Assembly (NCBI RefSeq): GCF_002240355.1
Contig: NZ_CP016353.1
Coordinates: 310,001-374,000 of the forward strand
Direction: 5' to 3'
Origin: Prauserella marina
GTDB taxonomy: Bacteria; Actinomycetota; Actinomycetes; Mycobacteriales; Pseudonocardiaceae
Length of the DNA: 64,000 bases
The notes beneath the pieces were generated by a model that was not told the DNA's origin, made no database searches, and saw only the letters and a list, made by a program, of their open reading frames with translations. This document shows positions 1,595 to 41,310 of the stretch, piece after piece (the first letter of the stretch is position 1; every line of letters starts with the position of its first letter). The position numbers were made by a program, and so were the translations under genes.

Positions 1595-1630
1595 CGCGGA
1601 CCTCAGGGCCTCGCCGTCGTGAGGTCCGCG
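1595..1630. terminator. Bidirectional hairpin between the GH3 gene and the SsgA-like gene
   Basis: An 11-bp perfect stem, CGCGGACCTCA paired with TGAGGTCCGCG around a 14-base loop. It lies just after the GH3 stop and overlaps the stop codon (1603-1605) of the convergent SsgA-like gene, so it can serve both. There is no T-run, as is common in high-GC actinomycetes. Confidence 0.6.
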
Positions 1631-2013
1631 ATCACCGCGTCGATGTCGAGGTGCGCGCTCTCAGTTCCCTGTGGAACGAAATCCATCGTCGCGTCGACGA
1701 ACAGTTCCACCTCCTTGCGTTTGATCTCGACCACGGCGTAGCCGTCGGGTGATTCGAGCTCGAACACGAGGACTTCCTCGTCGGGGGAAAGGTCCGGTCT
1801 GATCCGGATGTCGCCGATGCCCGTCGGCTCGTCCAGTCCCTCGATGAGCAGGTCCCTCGCGAACTCCCACTCGATCCACTCGCCCGCGTCGATGCGGAAG
1901 GCGATGGCAATCGTGAAGGGATCCGCTGTCGTGTACGACAGCCTCGACAGCACAGGTGTGCTGCAACCGTTGAGGTGTACGAACTGGCTCTGGTGTACGG
2001 CGTCGCCCTGCAC
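1603..2013 (-). CDS. SsgA-like protein (SALP), sporulation/cell-division regulator family
   Basis: A 136-residue protein of the SsgA/SsgB family, small cytoplasmic proteins of morphologically complex actinomycetes that control septum-site selection and peptidoglycan maintenance; SsgB recruits FtsZ. The family fingerprints are clear: YTTADPF, WIEWEFARDLLIEG, DEPTGIGDIRIRP, and a C-terminal PQGTE...LDIDAVIADL. The length fits the usual 130-145 aa. The start is GTG 2013, preceded at 6 bases by GGGAG; a longer reading would add about 43 residues unlike the family. It is convergent with the GH3 gene. Which SALP subfamily (SsgA to SsgG) it belongs to cannot be decided by eye. A second, element-borne SALP lies at 25565. 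Confidence 0.88.
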   Translation of the reverse strand: MQGDAVHQSQFVHLNGCSTPVLSRLSYTTADPFTIAIAFRIDAGEWIEWEFARDLLIEGLDEPTGIGDIRIRPDLSPDEEVLVFELESPDGYAVVEIKRKEVELFVDATMDFVPQGTESAHLDIDAVIADLTTARP

Positions 2014-2370
2014 AGCACACTCCCGTCTTTCCGGGTCACACGCGGATACGTGCGGTCGTTCTGGTTGAGAGACTGCCACCTGGCCGCATCGTGATGCGCC
2101 GATCGGACGAATCACAACCCGATCAACTCCAAGTAGAGACAATTCGGCGCGGGTTCGCGATTTCTAGTCCAGGAGGGTGGCGTTCACTTCGCTGGTCGAC
2201 CGCCTTGATCGCGTCACTGTCGACGCCGCCGAACTCGTTCACTCGATCGAGTTCCTTTGCCTGGAAAGGCGGGGTGGACTAGTGACACGGCAAGGGGAGA
2301 AGGGTAGACAGCGTTCGGGCCGGTCTATTCGGCCCGACTCCCGGGGGACATATTTTGATGGAGGAACCGC
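2014..2370. other. Intergenic region upstream of two divergent genes
   Basis: About 357 bases between the SsgA-like gene (minus) and the Pro/Glu-rich membrane protein gene (plus). It must hold both promoters. I see no convincing hairpin, RNA gene or short reading frame, apart from the Shine-Dalgarno sequence GGAGG six bases before ATG 2371. Confidence 0.4.
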
Positions 2371-19994: not shown

Positions 19995-20070
19995 GCGCCC
20001 GTAGCTCAACGGATAGAGCATCTGACTACGGATCAGAAGGTTAGGGGTTCGAATCCCTTCGGGCGCGCCA
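19995..20070 (+). tRNA. tRNA-Arg (anticodon ACG), integration site of the element
   Basis: The acceptor GCGCCCG pairs with CGGGCGC (20060-20066), discriminator G and encoded CCA. The anticodon loop CTACGGA carries ACG, whose A would be deaminated to inosine to read CGT, CGC and CGA. Its last 44 bases without the final CA are repeated exactly at 41267, so the element integrated here and restored the tRNA 3' end. Confidence 0.95.
20025..20068 (+). repeat. attL core, 44-bp direct repeat in tRNA-Arg
   Basis: Runs from the anticodon loop to base 68 of the tRNA 3' end; identical to 41267-41310. Starting upstream of the anticodon and ending next to the CCA end is typical of tyrosine-integrase sites in actinobacterial tRNA genes. 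Confidence 0.93.
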
Positions 20071-20102: not shown

Positions 20103-20181
20103 GCATTTCGGGAGAGCTGAGCGCTCAAGTTGTTGATCTTTGGGCACAGTTTGGGGCACAGCGGTTGCTAGCTTTGTGTCC

Positions 20182-21558
20182 ATGGGGGCGGCAGGACGAG
20201 GCAGGGCCAGTCAGCGAGGGAACATCGAGCGGCGGTCTTCCGGGTTCCGGGTTCGTGTGTCCGCGGGCAACGATCCTGTGACTGGTGACCGCCTGCTGTT
20301 GAGGGAGACGGTGCCGATCAGCCCGCCGGGCGACCGCAAGGCCGAGCAGGCGGCGTACCGGGAGGCTCAGAAGGTCCTGACCCGCCTGCAGGGTGAGGCT
20401 GACGATCTGAAGGTGGCGCGTACGAAGTCGACGTTCGGCGCGTTGCTTGACCGTTGGCTGCCGCAGCACGAGATCGATCCGACGACGCGGATGAACTACG
20501 AGTCCGCGATCCGTCAGTACATCCGTCCGGAGCTTGGTGACGTTCCGCTGTTGCTGCTCACTCGAGACGCGTCTGAAAGGCTTGAGCGCTTCTACGCTGA
20601 TCTTCGCCGCTGCAGCAAGCGGTGTAGCGGCCGGCCTTTCGTCGAGCACCGGGTTGATGGGCCACACGAGTGTCGTGAGGTGCAGCATCGTCGTCCTCCG
20701 GGGCGGCGGCCGGCGGCGGGCTATCCGGAGCACGACTGCGAGGAGGTTGGCTGCAAGGTCCTTGAGTGTCAGCAGCATGTCTGCACGCCGTACTCGGCAT
20801 CGAGCGTTCGCCAGGTGCACGCGATTATCAGCGGTGCTTTGAGTGCTGCCGTGCGATGGGGCTGGATTGCCTACAACCCGGCGCCCGCGGTGCGGTTGCC
20901 GGTGAAGCGCCGGCCACAGCCGCGGCCGCCGTCGTCCACCGATATGGCCCGCATCGTCGAGGCTGCGTACAGGGATGCCGAGTGGTGGGGCACATATGTG
21001 TGGCTGTCAGCTGTTATCGGTGCCCGCCGTGGTGAAGTCGTTGCCCTGCAGTGGGAAGACATCGACATGGACACAGGCATCGTCGTTCTCGACGAGAACT
21101 ACGTGCGCGGCCCTGACGGCATGATCGTGAAGGACACCAAGACCCATCAGGGACGCCGCGTTTCCGTTGACGAGGACACGGTCACTTTGCTGCAGCAGCA
21201 CCGATCGGCGTCGGCCACACAGCTGCGACGTCTGGGTGTGGAGTTGACCGGCCAGACCTGGCTGTTCTCGGCGAAGCCTGATCTGAGCCAGCCGCGCGAC
21301 CCGAGTTCGCTGACGCGTCGGTACTCGCGGCTGGTGGCCGAGCTTGGGATCGACACCCAGCTCAAACAGCTCCGCCACTACTCGGCCACGGAGCTTCTCA
21401 CTGCGGGAGTGGACCTGCGCACTGTCGCCGGCCGCCTCGGGCATGGTGATGGAACAACAACATTGCGGCACTACGCCGCTTGGGTCGGTGCGGCGGACCA
21501 GGCCGCAGCGAGCATGATCGGCAAACGGATGCCGAAGCTGCCGACGTCATTTTCATAG
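20182..21558 (+). CDS. int: Tyrosine recombinase (integrase) of the element
   Basis: A 458-residue site-specific recombinase that integrates and excises the element at tRNA-Arg. An N-terminal AP2-like arm-binding region is followed by a core-binding domain (about 75-145) with a Cys/His-rich insertion (about 148-212: RRCSKRC, ECREVQH, ECQQHVC), common in actinobacterial integrases and probably zinc-binding. The catalytic domain has Arg in GARRGEVVAL (about 282), Arg-His in LKQLRHYSATEL (Lys replaces the first His of the HxxR box), LGHG and the Tyr nucleophile in LRHYAAW (about 431). ATG 20182 is chosen over an upstream TTG. It overlaps the convergent phosphatase gene by 6 bases. Confidence 0.93.
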   Translation: MGAAGRGRASQRGNIERRSSGFRVRVSAGNDPVTGDRLLLRETVPISPPGDRKAEQAAYREAQKVLTRLQGEADDLKVARTKSTFGALLDRWLPQHEIDPTTRMNYESAIRQYIRPELGDVPLLLLTRDASERLERFYADLRRCSKRCSGRPFVEHRVDGPHECREVQHRRPPGRRPAAGYPEHDCEEVGCKVLECQQHVCTPYSASSVRQVHAIISGALSAAVRWGWIAYNPAPAVRLPVKRRPQPRPPSSTDMARIVEAAYRDAEWWGTYVWLSAVIGARRGEVVALQWEDIDMDTGIVVLDENYVRGPDGMIVKDTKTHQGRRVSVDEDTVTLLQQHRSASATQLRRLGVELTGQTWLFSAKPDLSQPRDPSSLTRRYSRLVAELGIDTQLKQLRHYSATELLTAGVDLRTVAGRLGHGDGTTTLRHYAAWVGAADQAAASMIGKRMPKLPTSFS

Positions 21559-22362
21559 GTCGGTGAGGATGACTGCGGCCAACGCTTTGTCGTCGGCGAC
21601 CTTGGCGCGCGGATTTTCCTTGCCGTGAGAGTCATCCTCGGTTTCCCAACTGGCGCACCGCTGCAACAAAGTTGCGAGTCCCTTGGAATCGAGCCCCGCG
21701 ATGTTGGGCCAGTCGTCAAGGCCAAGGTGAGTGATCGGACCGTACGCTCCGTCAGTAGCGAGCAGTGCCCAGCTGATGCTGCGAGCGTCTAGGGTCCGGA
21801 CAAGGGCGTTGCGTGCCGCTTCTGGATCTGCCTCAGCGATCCAGTAACCACCTGGCTGGTTCCGTTGCCTGCGTTGGCTTAGCTGCAGCCTTTTGAGCAG
21901 TTCACGATGTTGGTCGTCGTACCCATGCCCCTGGGCGAGACGTTCGCGGTACTCGCGATGCTCGGCGATGCCGAGTTCGGCAATGCGGTTGTCGCACAGG
22001 CGACTCGTTACATCGTCGCGCCCGTAGTAGATCGCGCTATCCCCGAGCGCAAAGAGGTCGACAGTGTTCTCCCGCCGCCGAACAATGCTGACTGTGCTCG
22101 ACGGCGACGCGCCGGGAACCAGCCGGAGGGTGTGGGCAGTTGCCGAGATCGATTCTGCGACGACGTCAGCGGTATCGCGCTGGGGCCATTCGGCCAAAGT
22201 TCGGACCAGGTACTGGCCCAACGTGTCTACGTAAGCCTCGGTGGGCACATCGACTGGCACGAATGCACTGGCACCGTCGAGGACGATCGTGGTCTGGTCG
22301 GTCACGAACACGCGGTCCTGGCTGCGCTCAGATCCCGGCCATTGAGCCTTCGCTACCTGCAT
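21553..22362 (-). CDS. PP2C-like Ser/Thr protein phosphatase
   Basis: A 269-residue PP2C-fold protein, metal-dependent phosphatases acting on phospho-Ser/Thr. The motif order is right: an early basic motif and QDRVFV, LDGAS (about 29), FALGDSAIYY (about 104), LATDGAY (about 199) and DDKALAAVIL at the C-terminus. The metal-binding Asp residues are in place, so activity is likely. It lies 3 bases downstream of an HTH protein, which suggests a regulatory pair. No kinase gene is present on the element, so its substrate may be a host protein or the HTH partner. Convergent with int. Confidence 0.8.
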   Translation of the reverse strand: MQVAKAQWPGSERSQDRVFVTDQTTIVLDGASAFVPVDVPTEAYVDTLGQYLVRTLAEWPQRDTADVVAESISATAHTLRLVPGASPSSTVSIVRRRENTVDLFALGDSAIYYGRDDVTSRLCDNRIAELGIAEHREYRERLAQGHGYDDQHRELLKRLQLSQRRQRNQPGGYWIAEADPEAARNALVRTLDARSISWALLATDGAYGPITHLGLDDWPNIAGLDSKGLATLLQRCASWETEDDSHGKENPRAKVADDKALAAVILTDL

Positions 22363-22365
22363 CGG

Positions 22366-23199
22366 TTACCAACCGTACGGGCCTGCAACGAGTTCACTGC
22401 CAGTGATGGTCGTTTCGTCTGAGGCAAAGGTGCAGCGAACGGCCATGCTGAACGAAGTGTCACCTAGCTTGTTGTAAAGCTCGCGCACGTTCGACGTCAG
22501 GTAATGCAGCACGCCACTCGATCCGACTGCGGTGATGCCCGCAACGTGCACGACGACTCGATCGCCCATGCGATGGCGCGCGAAGTAGCCGAAGTCAGCA
22601 GGGCTGGGCGGGTCCTCAAGTCGCGGCGAGTAGTACTGCTCGCCGCTCACGTGGTCCTCGATTCGCCAGCGCCCATCTTCCTTTGCGAAGCCGAGCTTGG
22701 AGTCGTTCTCGAGTAGGTGGCCTGCAACCGGAGCTGACCTCGGTCCGCAGATGATCACGGCGTCGCCGTCTGGCAGCTTTTCGAGCTCTGGCTCGATGGA
22801 GAAGCGCTCGCTGGCGAGTGACAGGCTCGTCAAGACGGTTTCGGCTTGCTCTTGCGCGAGAGCGTCTGACGCGTCGATGTAGGTCCGCATGCGGTGATCG
22901 GTTCCCCGACGGAGTGGAACGCCAACCTGAACAGGCCCGACACCGAAGAAGGCACGCTCAGGTCCTGGAGCAGAGCTCCGAATCTGCGTTATTCGTCCCT
23001 TCGAGATGCCCAGAGCTGCGGCGATCTCGGTGTAGCTCAGGTGCTTCTCGCGGTGCGCTTGCTCGATGGCCGCTTTGCGCAGCCGCGCCAGCTCGGTCGC
23101 CCGCTGTTGGTAGTGGGTCAGCAGCTTTGACGCGCGGCGGGCACGGCTCACCGGGTCAGGCTCCCGGAGCACTGAGTCGAAGTCGTCGACGTCCGCCAT
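22366..23199 (-). CDS. HTH regulator with C-terminal sensor-like domain, partner of the PP2C protein
   Basis: A 277-residue protein. Residues 1-75 form a helical region and a helix-turn-helix (LSYTEIAAALGISKGRITQI) of sigma-region-4/MarR-like type. The rest is an alpha/beta domain with VIICGPRSAPVAGHLL (about 148-163), RWRIEDHVSGEQYYSP, a YFARHRMGDRVVVHVAGI strand region and GSSGVLHYLTSNV. I have seen similar HTH-plus-CGPR proteins in actinobacterial mobile elements but cannot name the domain; the glycine-rich loop may bind a nucleotide. Start ATG 23199 is chosen; a longer start is possible. It is divergent from the xis operon, with palindromes in between that it could bind. Confidence 0.72.
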   Translation of the reverse strand: MADVDDFDSVLREPDPVSRARRASKLLTHYQQRATELARLRKAAIEQAHREKHLSYTEIAAALGISKGRITQIRSSAPGPERAFFGVGPVQVGVPLRRGTDHRMRTYIDASDALAQEQAETVLTSLSLASERFSIEPELEKLPDGDAVIICGPRSAPVAGHLLENDSKLGFAKEDGRWRIEDHVSGEQYYSPRLEDPPSPADFGYFARHRMGDRVVVHVAGITAVGSSGVLHYLTSNVRELYNKLGDTSFSMAVRCTFASDETTITGSELVAGPYGW

Positions 23200-23343: not shown

Positions 23344-23619
23344 GTGGAACACGCAATGACTTCGGCGGGCGCGGGACCGGACCGGCCGGCACCTGTCTTC
23401 TACAACGTCGCGGAAGCAGCCGACCTGCTGCGTTTGGACCAGTCGACCCTGTACCGCCACCTGCGGAGTGGGCGCTTTCCGGCAGTAAAGATCGGCGGCC
23501 GCTATGTCGTGCCACGCGTCGTGCTTGAGCGGTTGATCACGGACGTCCTTGCGGTCGGCACATGCCTGGACATTGCCGATTGGGCTGAGCGTTCGGGCTT
23601 TGCCGGGGGTGCGGCATGA
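23344..23619 (+). CDS. xis: Excisionase-like HTH protein
   Basis: A 91-residue protein with a MerR-type winged helix (HTH_17 excisionase family): FYNVAEAADLLRLDQSTLYR followed by HLRSGRFPAVKIGGRYVVPR. Such proteins bend DNA at att sites to drive excision, or activate transfer genes. GGGAGG is 6 bases before GTG 23344; ATG 23356 is an alternative. Its stop overlaps the start of the coupling ATPase (ATGA), making it the first gene of the transfer operon, so it may serve as regulator as well as excisionase. Confidence 0.82.
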   Translation: MEHAMTSAGAGPDRPAPVFYNVAEAADLLRLDQSTLYRHLRSGRFPAVKIGGRYVVPRVVLERLITDVLAVGTCLDIADWAERSGFAGGAA

Positions 23620-25565
23620 ACGGGTTGAGGAGTGTGGCGCTGGGCGCCGGCTTGATCGCGGTGGGCCTGCTGCTTCGCGGTGCGTCGGGTGAGCTGGCGC
23701 TGTACTGGCCGTGGCCGATCGCTGCGGGCGTTGTGGTGCTTCTCGTGTGCGCGGTGGCGTCGGTCCGGAATGAGGCGTTGCCTCGCGCGGCACTGGCCGG
23801 CGCCGGGTTGACTGGGCTGGGCGCGTGGTTTGCGGGTTGGGTTCCCGCGAACACTCCGGGCCACTCGTACTGGCCGTGGGCTCTGATCAGCGGCGTGGTG
23901 TTGCTGGTCGGTGCTGCGGTGGTGTGGTCGCGGCAGCGCGGTGGTTCGGCGGGTCTGGTGAATCGCTGGTCGCGCCGGTCGCGCCGCAATGATGGAGTTG
24001 CGTCCTGGTGGTCGATCCTGCGGTCGGCGTCGCGGTTCGCGGTGCGCCGCAAGGCGACCGTGTTGCGGCCGAGCTTGCAGGGTCTGACGTCGTGGCAGCG
24101 GCTGCGGGTACCGACGCGGGAGCTGGCTACGCCGGTGGCCCGGGTCGGTGGGTTGCGGGTGTGGTCGACGGTCGAGGACGTCACTCTTCGTCTGGGTGGT
24201 CCTCGCACGGGTAAGACGGGCGAGCTGGCCGGCCGGATTCTCGACGCGCCGGGTGCGGTGATCGCCACGAGCACCCGCACCGATCTGGTTGAGGTCACTG
24301 GTCCTGTGCGCAGGTTGCGGGGCCCGGTGCACGTGTTCAACCCCAGCGATGTGGGCGATGGCTCGTTGCCCTCGACGATCACGTTCGACCCGTTGTCGGG
24401 GTGCGAGGCCCCGGCGGCGGCGACGAGCCGCGCTGCGGATCTGATCGCCGGTGTCGCCGCTCCTGGTGATGGCGGGGACCGGGAGTACTGGGCCGGGCAG
24501 GCCCGACGGGTGCTGGCCGCGCTGCTGCACGCCGCCGCCCTGGGCGGGGCCACGATGCGCGACGTGCTTGCGTGGGTGGCGGACCCGGACGGTGCGGCGA
24601 ACGAGGTGCAGCGGTTCCTGCGCCGCTCGCCGGAACCGGCCTACGAGTCGGACGCGCTGCAGTTTCTGGGCACCAACGAGCGGACGCGGTCGTCGATCTG
24701 CGCCACGATCATGCCCTCGCTGGGCTGGCTGACCGATGAGAAGGCCGCCAAGGCCGCGGCTTCGGGCTCGTTCGATGTCGCCGAGCTGCTGGCGAACCGG
24801 GGCACGGTGTACATGCTGGGCGCCGAGGACGCGCAGGTCGCGCCGTTGGTGACGGCTCTGACCGGGCACATCGCGCGTGAGGCCCGGCGGATCGCGGGAT
24901 CGCAGCCCGGCGGGCGACTGGATCCGCCGTTGACGTTGGCGCTGGATGAGGCGGCGCTGATCTGCCCGTTGCCGTTGGACAACTGGACCGCGGACATGGG
25001 TGGCCGCAACGTGACCATCCACATCGCCGCGCAGTCTCGTGCGCAGCTGCGGAAGCGCTGGGGCGACACCGGTGCTGGGGCGATCCTGAACAACGCCGCC
25101 ACGGTGCTGATCTTCGGCGGAGCCCGCGATGCCGACGACCTCAACGCCTATTCGACGTTGACAGGGGAGCGGGACGAGCGGGTGGAGACCCGCGACACCG
25201 ACGGCACCGTGACTTCGGTGACCACCAGGCGGGTGCCGGTGCTCTCCCCGGGTCAGTTCGCGCAGCTTCCCGCCGGCCGGGTGGTGATCATCCGCCGTGG
25301 TCTGGCCCCGGCGGTCGGTCGGGTGCAGATGGCGTGGAAGCGCCGCGACGTGAAGGCCGCCCGCCGCGCCAACGTCTGGGCTGACCGGCTGGAGCGCTGG
25401 GGCCAGGGCTGGCAGCGCTTCGCTGACCGCGCCGAGGAGTGGGCCAGCCAGGACAAATACGCCGGTGTCCGGCAGAAGCTCGGCGTCCACCTCGACGTCG
25501 ACCGCCGCCACACCACCGCCAGCGGCACGCGCGTGCACGCCGATGTGGACGGAGGTGGCCGGTGA
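23616..25565 (+). CDS. VirD4/TraG-type coupling ATPase
   Basis: A 649-residue type IV coupling protein, which links the relaxase-DNA complex to the transfer channel and pumps DNA. Residues 1-110 contain about four membrane segments. The ATPase has Walker A GGPRTGKTGE (about 194-203), Walker B LALDEAALI (about 441-449), and downstream a TraM-recognition-type region with MGGRNVTIHIAAQSRAQL. The C-terminus is basic and coiled. This class moves single-stranded DNA, unlike the TraB translocases of most actinomycete AICEs. It is ATGA-coupled to xis, and its stop overlaps the next start (TGATG). No VirB4 partner is visible. Confidence 0.88.
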   Translation: MNGLRSVALGAGLIAVGLLLRGASGELALYWPWPIAAGVVVLLVCAVASVRNEALPRAALAGAGLTGLGAWFAGWVPANTPGHSYWPWALISGVVLLVGAAVVWSRQRGGSAGLVNRWSRRSRRNDGVASWWSILRSASRFAVRRKATVLRPSLQGLTSWQRLRVPTRELATPVARVGGLRVWSTVEDVTLRLGGPRTGKTGELAGRILDAPGAVIATSTRTDLVEVTGPVRRLRGPVHVFNPSDVGDGSLPSTITFDPLSGCEAPAAATSRAADLIAGVAAPGDGGDREYWAGQARRVLAALLHAAALGGATMRDVLAWVADPDGAANEVQRFLRRSPEPAYESDALQFLGTNERTRSSICATIMPSLGWLTDEKAAKAAASGSFDVAELLANRGTVYMLGAEDAQVAPLVTALTGHIAREARRIAGSQPGGRLDPPLTLALDEAALICPLPLDNWTADMGGRNVTIHIAAQSRAQLRKRWGDTGAGAILNNAATVLIFGGARDADDLNAYSTLTGERDERVETRDTDGTVTSVTTRRVPVLSPGQFAQLPAGRVVIIRRGLAPAVGRVQMAWKRRDVKAARRANVWADRLERWGQGWQRFADRAEEWASQDKYAGVRQKLGVHLDVDRRHTTASGTRVHADVDGGGR

Positions 25566-25993
25566 TGTCTGTGATCACGGTGGAGTACGTCGCCCAGGCC
25601 CGGCGGCACCAGCAGGGCTGCGAGGTCGAGGACCTGGGATCGCGGCGGGTGCGCCTGTCCTACGACCCGGACGACCCCTACGCCGTCGCGCTGGAGGTCT
25701 TCCACACCGATGCCTGGGCGCGGTGGGTGTTCGCCCGCTCGTTGCTTGTCCACGTGCCCAGCCGCGGTAAAGGTCTCGGCGCCGTGCACGTCTGCCCTGC
25801 GCCCGGAATGCCGCGTCAGCGGGTGTCGATCATCCTGCGCACTGCCCCCGGGGTCGGGTTCGAGCTGGTGTTGCGCCGCGCCGAGGTCGACGCGGCGGTG
25901 GACCGCTTCGACCACGTCGTGGCGATCGGCAGCGAATCCGAGTACATCGACTGGGAGACCGAGCTGGCCGCCCTGGGCGGGGGTGAGGCGTGA
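25565..25993 (+). CDS. Element-borne SsgA-like protein
   Basis: A 142-residue member of the SsgA-like family. It aligns by eye with the chromosomal copy (1603-2013) over its whole length: LSYDPDDPYAV, then ARWVFARSLLVHVPSRGKGLGA for VEWxFARDLLxEG...GxGD, an LRTAPGVGFELVLRRAEVDA segment, and the acidic end YIDWETELAAL for LDIDAVIADL. Host SsgA proteins steer septum formation during sporulation. It overlaps the coupling ATPase (TGATG) and the next gene (TGATG), so it is made together with the transfer apparatus. A role in septum positioning, wall remodelling during transfer or delaying host sporulation is inferred. Confidence 0.82.
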   Translation: MSVITVEYVAQARRHQQGCEVEDLGSRRVRLSYDPDDPYAVALEVFHTDAWARWVFARSLLVHVPSRGKGLGAVHVCPAPGMPRQRVSIILRTAPGVGFELVLRRAEVDAAVDRFDHVVAIGSESEYIDWETELAALGGGEA

Positions 25994-26658
25994 TGGCCGG
26001 CGACAAGGGCAAGGACCAGACCTTCGCCAGTACCGCCGCCGTTGCCGGGTTGGCCCGTGAGGTCGAGGGCCTGCGCAAGGCGGTCGAGCCGGTGACGGCG
26101 CTGTCGAACCAGATCGATGAGCTCGCCCGCGTGGTGCAGTACCTGGCCGCTCGCCAGGCCGGGCCCGGCCCTGCGGCGGGGTGCACGCCGTCGTGGCTGG
26201 ACATGCCCACCGAACCGGCCGCGACGCGGGAGGCGCTGGAAGAGCTGGCGTGGTGGATGCGGTTGGTGTTCCTGCGCTATGCCGATGCCGCGCAGAACCT
26301 TCCGGAGTGCTGGCTCTGGCATCCCGACATCGTCGAGGAACTGCTGTGGCTGATGCATGCGTGGCTGGCCGCCTACCGCGACGAGAAGGCCACCGTGGCA
26401 CGGGCGGGGGACTGGCACGACCGCTACCGGCCCGGTGTGGTGCGGAGGATCAAGACGCTGGGCGGTAACTGCTCGCTGGAGAACCACCAGCAGCGCGGCA
26501 ACCACACCGGCAGCCCCGTCGTGCCCCTGACCGAGGCCATGGCACCGATCAGCGCGTGGTGGGCCACGCACCGCGAGCAGGCCGCGCCGGAGCCTGAGGA
26601 CGAGCACTACGCGGCGGCGGCCACGGTGCAACGGCGCGCGGGTGGTGGTCGGCGATGA
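25993..26658 (+). CDS. DUF4913-like protein of the transfer operon
   Basis: A 221-residue soluble protein. Residues 15-55 form a likely coiled coil (LAREVEGLRKAVEPVTALSN). The core (about 80-160) has the pattern typical of DUF4913 proteins found beside actinobacterial transfer genes: the segment NLPECWLWHPDIVEELLWLM, then WLAAYRDE and DWHDRYRPGVVRRI. The tail is Ala/Arg-rich. No catalytic motif is seen. Coupled on both sides (TGATG from the SsgA-like gene, ATGA to the GGDEF gene). Role unknown; constant association with coupling ATPases suggests a structural transfer factor. Confidence 0.72.
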   Translation: MAGDKGKDQTFASTAAVAGLAREVEGLRKAVEPVTALSNQIDELARVVQYLAARQAGPGPAAGCTPSWLDMPTEPAATREALEELAWWMRLVFLRYADAAQNLPECWLWHPDIVEELLWLMHAWLAAYRDEKATVARAGDWHDRYRPGVVRRIKTLGGNCSLENHQQRGNHTGSPVVPLTEAMAPISAWWATHREQAAPEPEDEHYAAAATVQRRAGGGRR

Positions 26659-27251
26659 CCACGACCGTGCTGGTTGCCGTGCTCGCTGCCGTGTGGCTGG
26701 TGCCGGTGTTCGTCGCGCGCTATTGGTGGCGGCGGACCGCGTTCGACCAGCTGACCGGCCTGCCCAACCGTTCCCGACTCGAGGCGCTGGCCGGCCGTGC
26801 TCGTCGCGGCCGGTCGGTGGGCGTGCTGTTGCTGGATGTGGACCGCTTCAAGCAGGTCAACGACACCCATGGCCACCGGGTCGGCGATGCCCTGCTGGCC
26901 GCGTTCGCCCACCGCCTGCACGCCGCGACCACTCGGCGCGAGGTCGCGGTGCGACTGCACGGTGACGAGTTCGCCGTCTGGCTTGGCGCCACCCGGTCCG
27001 ATGCCGCCGCCCGGCGGGCGGCCGAGATCGCGGAGGCGCTGTCCCGCCCGGTGACGGTGGCGGGCCGCGAGTTGGTGATGACCGCCAGCGTCGGTCACGC
27101 CACGGGCCCCGGCGGTACCCCGATCGCCGAGTTGCTGCACGCCGCCGACACCGCCATGTACGCGGTCAAGCGCGCCCGCCACGTCGTCCCCGGCTTGCCG
27201 ACGACCGAGTCGGCGCCGCGGTTGCGTGATCACGGAAAGGACGCCGCCTGA
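26655..27251 (+). CDS. Membrane-anchored GGDEF-domain protein (probable diguanylate cyclase)
   Basis: A 198-residue protein with one N-terminal membrane helix (about 4-22) directly followed by a GGDEF domain. The start DQLTGLPNRSRLE, the metal/substrate motif LLLDVDRFKQVNDTHGH, GDALL and the signature RLHGDEFAVW are present; the first Gly of GG(D/E)EF is His, a substitution that may keep or weaken activity. ADTAMYAVKRA closes the domain. The RxxD inhibitory site is absent. It would make c-di-GMP, which in Streptomyces binds BldD and blocks sporulation. No EAL domain is nearby. It is coupled by ATGA to DUF4913 and by TGATG to DUF2637. Confidence 0.88.
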   Translation: MTTTVLVAVLAAVWLVPVFVARYWWRRTAFDQLTGLPNRSRLEALAGRARRGRSVGVLLLDVDRFKQVNDTHGHRVGDALLAAFAHRLHAATTRREVAVRLHGDEFAVWLGATRSDAAARRAAEIAEALSRPVTVAGRELVMTASVGHATGPGGTPIAELLHAADTAMYAVKRARHVVPGLPTTESAPRLRDHGKDAA

Positions 27252-28162
27252 TGAACACGACCAGCACGAGCACCGAGAGCCCGAGGTCCGGGTGGGCTGT
27301 GTGGGGGCTGTGGCTTCCGGGCTTGCTCGTGGCCCTCGGTGCGGGTGTGGCCACCGCGCACGGCCTCTATGAGGTCGCGGCAGCGGCCGCGGTGCCGACC
27401 GTGATCGCGTGGCTGTACCCGCTGATCACCGACGGCCTGGCCCTGGTCGCCTACGTCGCCACCGCCCGGCTGACCGGGTCGGCACGGCGCTACGCGTGGG
27501 CCGTGGTGGTGCTGGCCGCCGGGCTGTCCGGTCTGGCGCAGGCCAGCTACCTCGCCGGGGGAGTCGGGGATGCCTCCCCGCTGCTGCGCTTCGGCGTCGG
27601 CGCGTGGCCCGCGGTCGCGGCCGCGATCGTGGCGCACCTGCTGTTCCTCATCGCCGCCGACCGTCCGACCGTGAACAACTCGACGGCCGAGAACTCCGGC
27701 GAGCGTCCGGTCGCCCCGGCGGCCGAGAGCGCGCCCGCGTCCAACACCGCTGTGTTGTCCACGTCGGATGATCGGCCGACCGTTCAGCTTCCCGCCGTTG
27801 AGCCCGAACGCGTTCAGACCTCGGCTGTTCAGCCGGGTGTTCACCGCGAGCGCGTCCAGCCTGTTCAGCCGTCGCGTCCGGTCGAGGCCCCGTCGGCGTC
27901 GTCGCCAGGTGTTCAGTCGCGGCCGTCCGGCGCGGCGCGGCGGGTGGAGGCCAAGCGGGCGCAGGCCCCGGCGCGCGAGCGCGCCGACGAGGCCGCCCAG
28001 CGCTACACCATCGAGCACAACGGCTTGCCCACGGTCACCCAGCTCATGGAACTGGCCGAGGTATCCCGAGGCACAGCAGGCGAGGCCCTCAAAGCCCTGC
28101 GAGACAAGCCCGCACCCCTACACCTGGTCCACGAGCACGACCAGCAGAAGGCCACCTCATGA
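27251..28162 (+). CDS. DUF2637-type membrane protein with C-terminal helix-turn-helix
   Basis: A 303-residue protein. Residues 15-135 contain four membrane helices of the DUF2637/Spd-like type (AVWGLWLPGLLVALGAGVAT, WLYPLITDGLALVAYVA, RYAWAVVVLAAGLSGLA and a fourth). A long Pro/Val/Gln/Ser-rich linker (about 140-235) leads to a basic segment and a winged-helix-like end (GLPTVTQLMELAEVSRGTAG then EALKALRDK). Spd proteins assist plasmid spread between hyphal compartments. It is the last gene of the coupled operon. The combination of membrane domain and DNA-binding end could tether element DNA at the membrane. Confidence 0.78.
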   Translation: MNTTSTSTESPRSGWAVWGLWLPGLLVALGAGVATAHGLYEVAAAAAVPTVIAWLYPLITDGLALVAYVATARLTGSARRYAWAVVVLAAGLSGLAQASYLAGGVGDASPLLRFGVGAWPAVAAAIVAHLLFLIAADRPTVNNSTAENSGERPVAPAAESAPASNTAVLSTSDDRPTVQLPAVEPERVQTSAVQPGVHRERVQPVQPSRPVEAPSASSPGVQSRPSGAARRVEAKRAQAPARERADEAAQRYTIEHNGLPTVTQLMELAEVSRGTAGEALKALRDKPAPLHLVHEHDQQKATS

Positions 28163-33853: not shown

Positions 33854-34296
33854 TGGGCACCGTCTACTGCGGACCGTTTGCCGAGGCGGTTGGCTACCAC
33901 GACCACGAGGGATACTCGGCGCGGATCCTGCCGGATGGCACCGAGACCGCCATCTGGACGTACGAGACCCGTGAGTTCGTCGGCTACCGTGCCCACTGCG
34001 AGTGCGGCTGGCGTGGTCGGCACCGCTACGCGGCCACCGACGAAGGTGAGCAGCTCGCCGACGAGGAATGGGATCGTGACCACCTCCGTCCTCTCATCGA
34101 TGCTGAAGCCCAGCGGTACACCGTGCCCGCGTCAAGGCTGCTCGACTTCACCCGCGAGCTGCGTGAGTCGCTGACCACCACGGACGACGAGCAGGGCAGG
34201 CCGATGCTGACCGCCCACTGCCAAGGCGTACTTCACGCTGCCGAGCAGCTGGAACGGTTCCTGGACGACCTCGCCCAGAACGGGGGTGAGCTGTGA
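33853..34296 (+). CDS. Hypothetical protein with a Cys-x-Cys motif
   Basis: A 147-residue acidic protein. The middle has HCECGWRGRHRY, a CxC site with nearby His residues like half of a zinc ribbon. The C-terminal third is helical (ASRLLDFTRELRESL, GVLHAAEQLERFLDDLAQ). Proteins of this kind occur upstream of methyltransferases in actinobacterial elements, but no activity is known to me. TGATG overlaps on both sides show tight coupling to the small basic protein and to the methyltransferase. Confidence 0.65.
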   Translation: MGTVYCGPFAEAVGYHDHEGYSARILPDGTETAIWTYETREFVGYRAHCECGWRGRHRYAATDEGEQLADEEWDRDHLRPLIDAEAQRYTVPASRLLDFTRELRESLTTTDDEQGRPMLTAHCQGVLHAAEQLERFLDDLAQNGGEL

Positions 34297-35873
34297 TGTT
34301 CAGCCTCTATGACGAGTTCGCCGGATTCGGTGGCAGTTCCCAGGGCGCGGCCGCGGTGCCGGGGGTGGAGTTGATGCTGGCCGCGAACCATCACCCGCTC
34401 GCGGTGGACGTGCACGCGATGAACTTCCCGAGCGCGGATCACTACTGCGGGGACATCGCGAAAGCCGACATCGCCAAGTTCCCTCGTGCGGACCTGTTCT
34501 GGTCCTCGCCGTCGTGCCCGCCGTGGACCGACGCCCGCGGCGTGCGGCGGGACTTCGACCGCTCCACCCAGGGCGTGCTGTTCGACATGAACACAGGCCC
34601 CGTGGCCACCGACCCGAACGTCGCTCGAGCACGTGCGTTGATGGAAGAGGTGCCCCGCTACCTGCAGGCCATGCGCCGCAAAGGCCGGCCCGTGCTGGGC
34701 GGGGTGGTGGAGAACGTGGTGCAGGTCCGCAAGTGGGACCAGTTCACCCGGTGGCGTCGCGAAATCGAGGCCGAGGGCTACCGCACCCGGCTGGTCGCGC
34801 TGAACGCCATGCACGTCACCGCCCCCGTCACGGGGAGGGTCGCCCAGTCCCGCAACCGGTTCTTCATGCCGTTCTGGCTGGCCGAGCTCGGCCGCGACCC
34901 CGACTGGGACAAATGGCTCCGCCCTCGCGCGCACTGCCCGACCTGCGACCAGACCGTGAACGCGGTGCAGGTGTTCAAACAGCAGCGCACCGACATGGGC
35001 GTCTACGGCGCCCGCAACGGCCAGTACGTCTACCGCTGCCCGCAGCGCAGCTGCCGCCACCAGGCAGTCGAGCCCGACGTGCTGCCCGCCGCGAGCGTCA
35101 TCGACTGGACACTGCCACCCGGCCAGCGCATCGGTGACCGCGTCGACGCCAAGGGCCGCCCGGACCCGCTCGCCCCCGCGACGCTGGCGCGTATCGAGGC
35201 CGGCCTCACCCGCCACGCACGGCAGTCGCTGCTCGCGCCGGCCGGGGGCACCTGGCGGCAGGCAGCGACCTCGCTCGACGAGCCGCTGCCCACCCGCACC
35301 ACACGCGAAACCGACGGTCTCGTGGTCCCGCCGCTGGTCGTTCCGGTCGCCAAACGAGCTGGCGTCGACACCGCCACCACCACAGGGCAGCCGCTGCGCA
35401 CCCAGACCTGCCGCCGCGAAACCGCCCTCGTCATCCCACCGTTTCTGTCCCTGCTGCGCGGGGGAGGCTCAAAGACCGCCGCGTATCCGCTCACCGGCCC
35501 CATGCCCACCGTGTCCGCACAGGGCAACCACCACGCCTTGGTCCACCCACCGGCAGCCGAGAACGCCGCTCTGCTCGCCTACTACTCCAACGGCCCCGCG
35601 CGGCCGGTGGCCGAGCCTCCCGGGACGCTGACCACCCGAGATCGCTACGGGCTGATCAACGGCACACCACCGGTCGAGTCCTGCACCTTCCGCATGCTCG
35701 CCACCCACGAAATCGCCGCCGGCATGGGCTTCGACCCCGACTACCAGGTCAAAGGCTCCAAACGCGACCAGGTCCGCGGCTACGGCAACGCCGTCCCACC
35801 CGCCATGTCCGAAGTCCTCATCTCCGCCCTCGTCGAGGCCATCAGCGGAGAACCACTCACCCCCGCCGCCTAA
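34296..35873 (+). CDS. C5-cytosine DNA methyltransferase with Cys-rich insertion
   Basis: A 525-residue DNA (cytosine-5) methyltransferase. AdoMet motif I is DEFAGFGGSSQG at the N-terminus. The catalytic Cys74 is in SSPSCPPWTD, where the classical Pro-Cys pair is Ser-Cys. Motif VI is VVENV (Glu139), motif VIII QSRNRFF (184-190), and motif X is GYGNAVPPAMSEVL near the end. A zinc-ribbon-like insertion follows motif VIII (CPTCDQT, then CPQRSCRH), and a long target-recognition region precedes motif X. No restriction endonuclease is adjacent, so it is an orphan that may protect transferred DNA from host restriction or mark element DNA. Coupled by TGATG. Confidence 0.88.
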   Translation: MFSLYDEFAGFGGSSQGAAAVPGVELMLAANHHPLAVDVHAMNFPSADHYCGDIAKADIAKFPRADLFWSSPSCPPWTDARGVRRDFDRSTQGVLFDMNTGPVATDPNVARARALMEEVPRYLQAMRRKGRPVLGGVVENVVQVRKWDQFTRWRREIEAEGYRTRLVALNAMHVTAPVTGRVAQSRNRFFMPFWLAELGRDPDWDKWLRPRAHCPTCDQTVNAVQVFKQQRTDMGVYGARNGQYVYRCPQRSCRHQAVEPDVLPAASVIDWTLPPGQRIGDRVDAKGRPDPLAPATLARIEAGLTRHARQSLLAPAGGTWRQAATSLDEPLPTRTTRETDGLVVPPLVVPVAKRAGVDTATTTGQPLRTQTCRRETALVIPPFLSLLRGGGSKTAAYPLTGPMPTVSAQGNHHALVHPPAAENAALLAYYSNGPARPVAEPPGTLTTRDRYGLINGTPPVESCTFRMLATHEIAAGMGFDPDYQVKGSKRDQVRGYGNAVPPAMSEVLISALVEAISGEPLTPAA

Positions 35874-41266: not shown

Positions 41267-41310
41267 ACTACGGATCAGAAGGTTAGGGGTTCGAATCCCT
41301 TCGGGCGCGC
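41267..41310 (+). repeat. attR core, 44-bp direct repeat of tRNA-Arg
   Basis: Exact copy of 20025-20068, covering the anticodon loop to the acceptor end of tRNA-Arg but with unrelated sequence before it, so it is not a functional tRNA. Marks the right end of the element. Confidence 0.93.

Follow-up and report, generated by a model that had tools for sequence, protein, structure and literature searches.

An SsgA-like protein encoded with the DNA-transfer ATPase of an integrative element in Prauserella marina, and its relatives beside the pumps of mobile elements

We analysed a stretch of 64,000 nucleotides from Prauserella marina (contig NZ_CP016353.1, positions 310,001 to 374,000; the whole stretch is called the window below), in which the transfer operon of an integrative element encodes an SsgA-like protein (SALP) directly downstream of a VirD4/TraG-type coupling ATPase (T4CP). 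The features of this element are listed in Table 1.

An SsgA-like gene coupled to a transfer ATPase

The element SALP belongs to the SsgA family, as the original prediction had proposed, with a match to Pfam PF04686 of 54.3 bits (curated cut-off 25; E=1.3e-14) by which chance similarity can be rejected. The further claim that the SsgA pattern runs from end to end held for the fold, since the predicted structure could be aligned to solved SsgB over residues 1-137 and showed the SsgB-type alpha+beta fold, and failed for the Pfam match, which begins only at residue 29 (residues 29-124, equivalent to profile positions 3-98 of 98). Identity to the SsgB structures (PDB 6SLC, 6SUJ and 3CM1) was 26-29%. 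A V-x2-G-x-E motif, equated by motif and spacing with a loop of SsgB, was invariant in an alignment of seven T4CP-linked SALPs and in a 16-row SALP alignment. SsgB has been described to bring FtsZ to septum sites, and its substitutions V115G, G118V and E120G to be associated with misplaced septa (PMC8061694). The gene is not a plain copy of SsgD, the only named SALP with an NCBIfam equivalog model (none is listed for SsgA and SsgB), as it scored only 39.1 bits where the cut-off is 185, nor of SsgB, as it did not group with the SsgB rows in the 61-row tree described below. By a search of its own genome the host encodes three SALPs, the element SALP among them. Both junctions of the SALP gene read TGATG (25563-25567 and 25991-25995), which confirms the predicted one-base overlaps with both neighbours, and a GGAGG can be read close upstream of its start codon.

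Table 1. Features of the integrative element (positions in the window)
Feature	Position	Strand	Basis
Left repeat, 44 bp, in tRNA-Arg(acg) 19995-20070	20025..20068	+	exact repeat of tRNA 3' part
Tyrosine integrase	20140..21558	+	Phage_integrase 9.7e-17
Excisionase-like HTH_17 protein	23344..23619	+	HTH_17 2.3e-14; 4-base overlap with T4CP
VirD4/TraG-type coupling ATPase (T4CP), 649 aa	23616..25565	+	TraG-D_C 7.1e-22; T4SS-DNA_transf 7.2e-20
SsgA-like protein (SALP), 142 aa	25565..25993	+	PF04686; SsgB fold; 1-base overlaps with both neighbours
Conserved transfer-operon gene, weakly DUF4913-like	25993..26658	+	homologue in 40/40 fetched loci
GGDEF (diguanylate cyclase-like) protein, HGDEF replacing GGDEF	26655..27251	+	PF00990 5.7e-38
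SpdB-like membrane protein	27251..28162	+	DUF2637 0.0047 (below cut-off); homologue in 35/40 loci
MobF (TrwC-type) relaxase-helicase, 1480 aa	28389..32831	+	TrwC 4.1e-48; NCBIfam MobF 161.8 bits, cut-off 100
Right repeat, 44 bp, identical to left	41267..41310	+	exact repeat

With an integrase, tRNA-flanking repeats, a T4CP and a relaxase all present, the element is of the integrative mobilisable/conjugative type with a MobF relaxase, and the predicted setting of the SALP, behind a VirD4-type ATPase and within the transfer operon of an integrative element, was found as described. All neighbour pairs from the excisionase-like through the SpdB-like gene overlap by 1 or 4 bases. The DUF4913 label given to the gene after the SALP fared less well: neither its product nor the homologue in a related locus (L061) gave a Pfam match to DUF4913 at E<=0.1, and what remains of the label is a weak match in one other homologue (L067; 0.0038, below the curated cut-off). 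Among 17 element open reading frames (ORFs; a subset of the total) scanned against Pfam, with no dedicated VirB4 model run, no VirB4-like protein was found. The same 17 ORFs gave no FtsK match, and the pump is a VirD4/TraG-type T4CP, so the element falls outside the elements with an FtsK/SpoIIIE-type TraB, for which we take actinomycete integrative and conjugative element (AICE) to be the label.

Other genes of the element include a C5 cytosine methylase gene downstream of the relaxase gene (34293-35873) and, adjoining the integrase gene, a PP2C-like phosphatase gene beside a gene for a sigma/HTH-type (helix-turn-helix) DNA-binding protein (21553-23199, minus strand). The GGDEF protein (26655-27251) is short, with an N-terminal hydrophobic stretch and the HGDEF motif. 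In another genome (G233), a related element with the same kind of integrase follows the tRNA-Ser(gct)/tRNA-Arg(acg) pair that also precedes the window's element. Host SALPs of one clade lie before this pair in both cases, at ~18 kb in the window (1603-2142, minus strand) and at ~13 kb in G233 (contig C33), and the integration site therefore seems to be kept between the two genera.

SALPs recur next to two types of DNA pump

We searched 297 genomes of the host's family for the T4CP (E<=1e-40), which gave matches in 83 genomes and 150 listed rows. Forty of the 149 rows other than the window's were fetched at length, G056 being left out as its contig ends after the T4CP. All 40 loci encoded a DUF4913-like protein, 35 an SpdB-like protein and 36 a relaxase; at the four loci without a relaxase match (L052, L069, L070 and L086) no further search was made. 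The T4CP and DUF4913-like genes are separated by a slot of variable content, which opens with a SALP in 6/40 loci (L061, L065, L067, L068, L069 and L070, from five genomes with three genus codes), the window being the seventh. A SALP beside a T4CP is hence not unique to the window, and the recurrence that the original prediction had anticipated beside coupling ATPases was observed within the family. The T4CP-SALP junction is TGATG in L061, L065, L067 and L070, as in the window, while the likely SALP start lies 5 bases past the T4CP stop in L068 and ~280 bases past it in L069. Slots without a SALP contained a single-stranded DNA-binding protein (SSB) gene (L062), a C5 methylase gene (L052), a GGDEF gene (L059) or other genes, many of them for long proteins that match no Pfam family, or were empty.

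A profile of the seven T4CP-linked SALPs, run on the same 297 genomes, gave scores of 159-199 bits for those seven and of at most 108 for all others; up to 14 candidates were scored per genome and the best 150 matches listed, so weaker SALPs beside pumps can escape this search. The survey was then extended to FtsK-type translocases. Among the next 19 matches of the profile (E 1.6e-30 to 6.0e-24), 15 are located upstream of a same-strand FtsK/SpoIIIE-type gene, and the other four (G233:C21, G241:C82, G058:C23 and G026:C48) group with host SALPs; the G058 SALP, 12 kb from an FtsK-type gene, was counted as not linked. PF01580 was above cut-off in both FtsK-type members checked against Pfam. Near the 15 FtsK-linked SALPs we found a GntR-type regulator in 10 cases, and in 11 the SALP and the pump are separated by a conserved gene of unknown family. 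Two of these loci (G217 and G241) showed both an integrase and a tRNA in the fetched stretch, from which the remaining ones are presumed to be AICE-like. Two further linked SALPs were found (G230:C1:3655790 and that of G049), the latter upstream of a protein without a Pfam match that matched TraB at 1.3e-17 and 63.6 bits (equivalog cut-off 800). With G049 counted through this TraB-like match, 7 T4CP-linked and 17 FtsK/TraB-linked SALPs make a total of 24. By hand count, at least 11 of the 89 FtsK-type pump rows of at least 300 bits had a listed SALP within 10 kb; most of these pumps, including one in the window's own genome, had none. Two AICE-like stretches from genomes with two genus codes (L146 in G084 and L147 in G145, compared as L099 and L100), SALP included, are 96% identical over 7 kb, which points to recent horizontal transfer.

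Outside the family, the seven-SALP profile (E<=1e-24) matched nothing in 394 genomes of the class except the window's own SALP. A 16-row SALP profile (E<=1e-22) matched 152 of 296 class genomes, where scores apart from the window's own did not exceed 115 bits and resembled those of host SALPs. Within the searches made, no T4CP-SALP pair was found beyond the host's family. Nucleotide records matching the window SALP comprised 12 plasmids and one phage. No T4CP- or FtsK98-like ORF was found within ~7.8 kb at the four of 12 plasmid SALP places that were opened (one of them unannotated), and none of the 12 records recurred among the best 60 of 63 plasmid records matching the T4CP. A SALP-like stretch at 34% identity is also present in MT838510.1 (5.2 kb, from human faeces), a record named Bacteriophage sp. 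and possibly misnamed.

Phylogeny and constraint of element-borne SALPs

A first SALP tree contained 57 rows, each checked for a T4CP or FtsK98-like ORF in at least 4.8 kb of surrounding DNA per side. Nineteen rows had such an ORF on the same strand and 38 did not, among the latter G049 and the SsgB of G262, which has an opposite-strand FtsK-type gene 5.4 kb off. With four further linked rows added, one branch of the resulting 61-row tree parts the 24 transfer-linked SALPs from the 37 others (support 90/82). For a clade of the 23 linked rows without G049 the approximately unbiased (AU) test gave p 0.16; together with G049 they form the one side of this branch. The T4CP-linked SALPs fall into two groups (the window with G020, and the other five), each adjoining FtsK-linked SALPs, and a single clade of all seven was not rejected (AU p 0.09). 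For the T4CPs of the same seven loci a single clade was rejected (AU p 9.6e-12). At least three gains or losses of the SALP are required on the T4CP tree, which suggests that it has been recurrently kept. The SALP of a Lentzea record groups with that of G022, by which the family searched is probably Pseudonocardiaceae.

The ratio of nonsynonymous to synonymous substitution rates (dN/dS) of the SALPs was 0.50 for the pair window-L061, 0.26 for L065-L067, and 0.07, 0.27, 0.59 and 0.60 for FtsK-linked pairs. The T4CPs belonging to the first two pairs gave 0.40 and 0.14 (550 C-terminal codons). The SALPs are constrained (dN/dS <1), though less tightly than the pump.

Possible roles and relation to known systems

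We regard the window gene as a member of a mobile-element SALP branch, made together with a DNA-transfer ATPase, and consider it most likely to be a factor that sites or licenses the pump, a reading that we hold at just short of even confidence. The roles suggested in the original prediction (positioning of transfer sites at septa, wall remodelling or a delay of sporulation) are conjectural. From the comparisons above we infer its localisation, partners and effect on transfer as follows. Like host SALPs, the element SALP would recognise sites of division or wall growth, or host SsgA, SsgB or FtsZ. At cross-walls or newly remodelled wall, to which it would bring the membrane-bound pump together with SpdB-like proteins, DNA could pass between or along hyphae. 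TraB and Spd proteins have been described to act in mycelial transfer and spread, the Spd membrane proteins being required for intramycelial transfer (PMC12857230, PMC4170104). We count in favour of a site factor the TGATG coupling, the recurrence at 6/40 T4CP loci and in 15/19 further matches, the tree branch, the repeated gains or losses, the dN/dS values, the SsgB fold with its V-x2-G-x-E motif, and the SpdB-like partner in 35/40 loci. Several observations weigh on the other side. The branch support of 90/82 is under the tool's own 95/80 mark and not decisive, with few columns and long branches, and the tree test is not independent of the choice of rows because the best matches to the element SALPs supplied 15 of the 24 linked rows. 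SALP sequences drift faster than the T4CP. The SALP is absent from 34/40 fetched T4CP elements, for which it must be dispensable, and in the wider class, where a T4CP search of 246 genomes matched 40, no SALP lay within ~1.5 kb at any of 29 fetched loci.

The main alternative, which we think doubtful, is a modulation of host development, in which the element SALP would compete with or supplement host SALPs and the host, by postponing or altering sporulation septation, would remain accessible to transfer; an effect in the same direction would come from the GGDEF enzyme via cyclic di-GMP (c-di-GMP) and BldD. The GGDEF gene is indeed located two places downstream of the SALP gene in the same coupled operon. 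BldD bound to c-di-GMP has been described to repress sporulation genes, with ftsZ, ssgA and ssgB among its targets, and overexpression of a diguanylate cyclase to yield a bald strain (PMC4151990). However, the two genes occur together in the window only: GGDEF homologues were found at four of the 40 related loci (L055, L058, L059 and L066) and at none of the six with a SALP. With HGDEF in place of the motif, the cyclase activity is also putative, and a developmental role would leave the link between the SALP and the pump itself unaccounted for.

That the SALP is a passenger, a host gene picked up by a slot of the operon that tolerates insertions and without a role in transfer, would fit the variable content of this slot (elsewhere SSB, C5 methylase, GGDEF or unknown genes) and the many elements without a SALP. 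We consider this improbable, as two separate T4CP-linked groups come together with FtsK-linked SALPs in the tree, the SALP, where present, is the first gene of the slot, and dN/dS is below 1. Least probable is a protein of Whirly-like fold that would handle single-stranded DNA or RNA during transfer: a common fold says nothing of function, the seven T4CP-linked SALPs are acidic by sequence (predicted isoelectric point 4.5-6.0; 4.2-9.4 for FtsK-linked SALPs), and FtsK-like TraB has been described to move double-stranded DNA (PMC12857230).

More broadly, it is conceivable, with rather less than even confidence, that mobile elements of mycelial actinomycetes own a SALP subfamily that takes part in conjugation by VirD4/MobF and FtsK-type pumps and that, controlled by the element, ties transfer to sites at septa or in the wall. 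If so, such elements would bring along a means of their own to act on host septation or development. The entry and spread of conjugative DNA in walled multinucleate hyphae are poorly understood, with TraB and Spd known and their placing factor not, and a division-site family recurring beside the pumps of two unrelated transfer systems offers a concrete gene to study. A full-text search of open-licence papers found none linking SsgA or SALPs with conjugation, integrative elements, FtsK or conjugative plasmids, and within this literature the original statement that SALPs have no described role in conjugation stands.

The window SALP resembles SsgB and the SALPs of sporulating actinomycetes in its PF04686 match above cut-off, its SsgB fold and the V-x2-G-x-E loop, and differs from SsgB and host SALPs in being element-borne, coupled to a transfer ATPase, on the other side of the tree and only 26-29% identical to the SsgB structures. 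The element shares with AICEs carrying an FtsK-type TraB a tyrosine integrase at a tRNA and an SpdB-like protein, and in 17 cases also a SALP close to the pump, whereas its own transfer genes are a VirD4-type T4CP and a MobF relaxase in place of an FtsK-type pump. Plasmid pPSED02 of Pseudonocardia dioxanivorans has been described to encode a SALP-Wbl fusion (PMC3814722), likewise a SALP on an extrachromosomal element. Compared by description, that SALP differs in being fused to a wbl gene, and the part of the account available names no transfer context. The SALP family is known and SALPs on plasmids are on record; the setting within a transfer operon is new.
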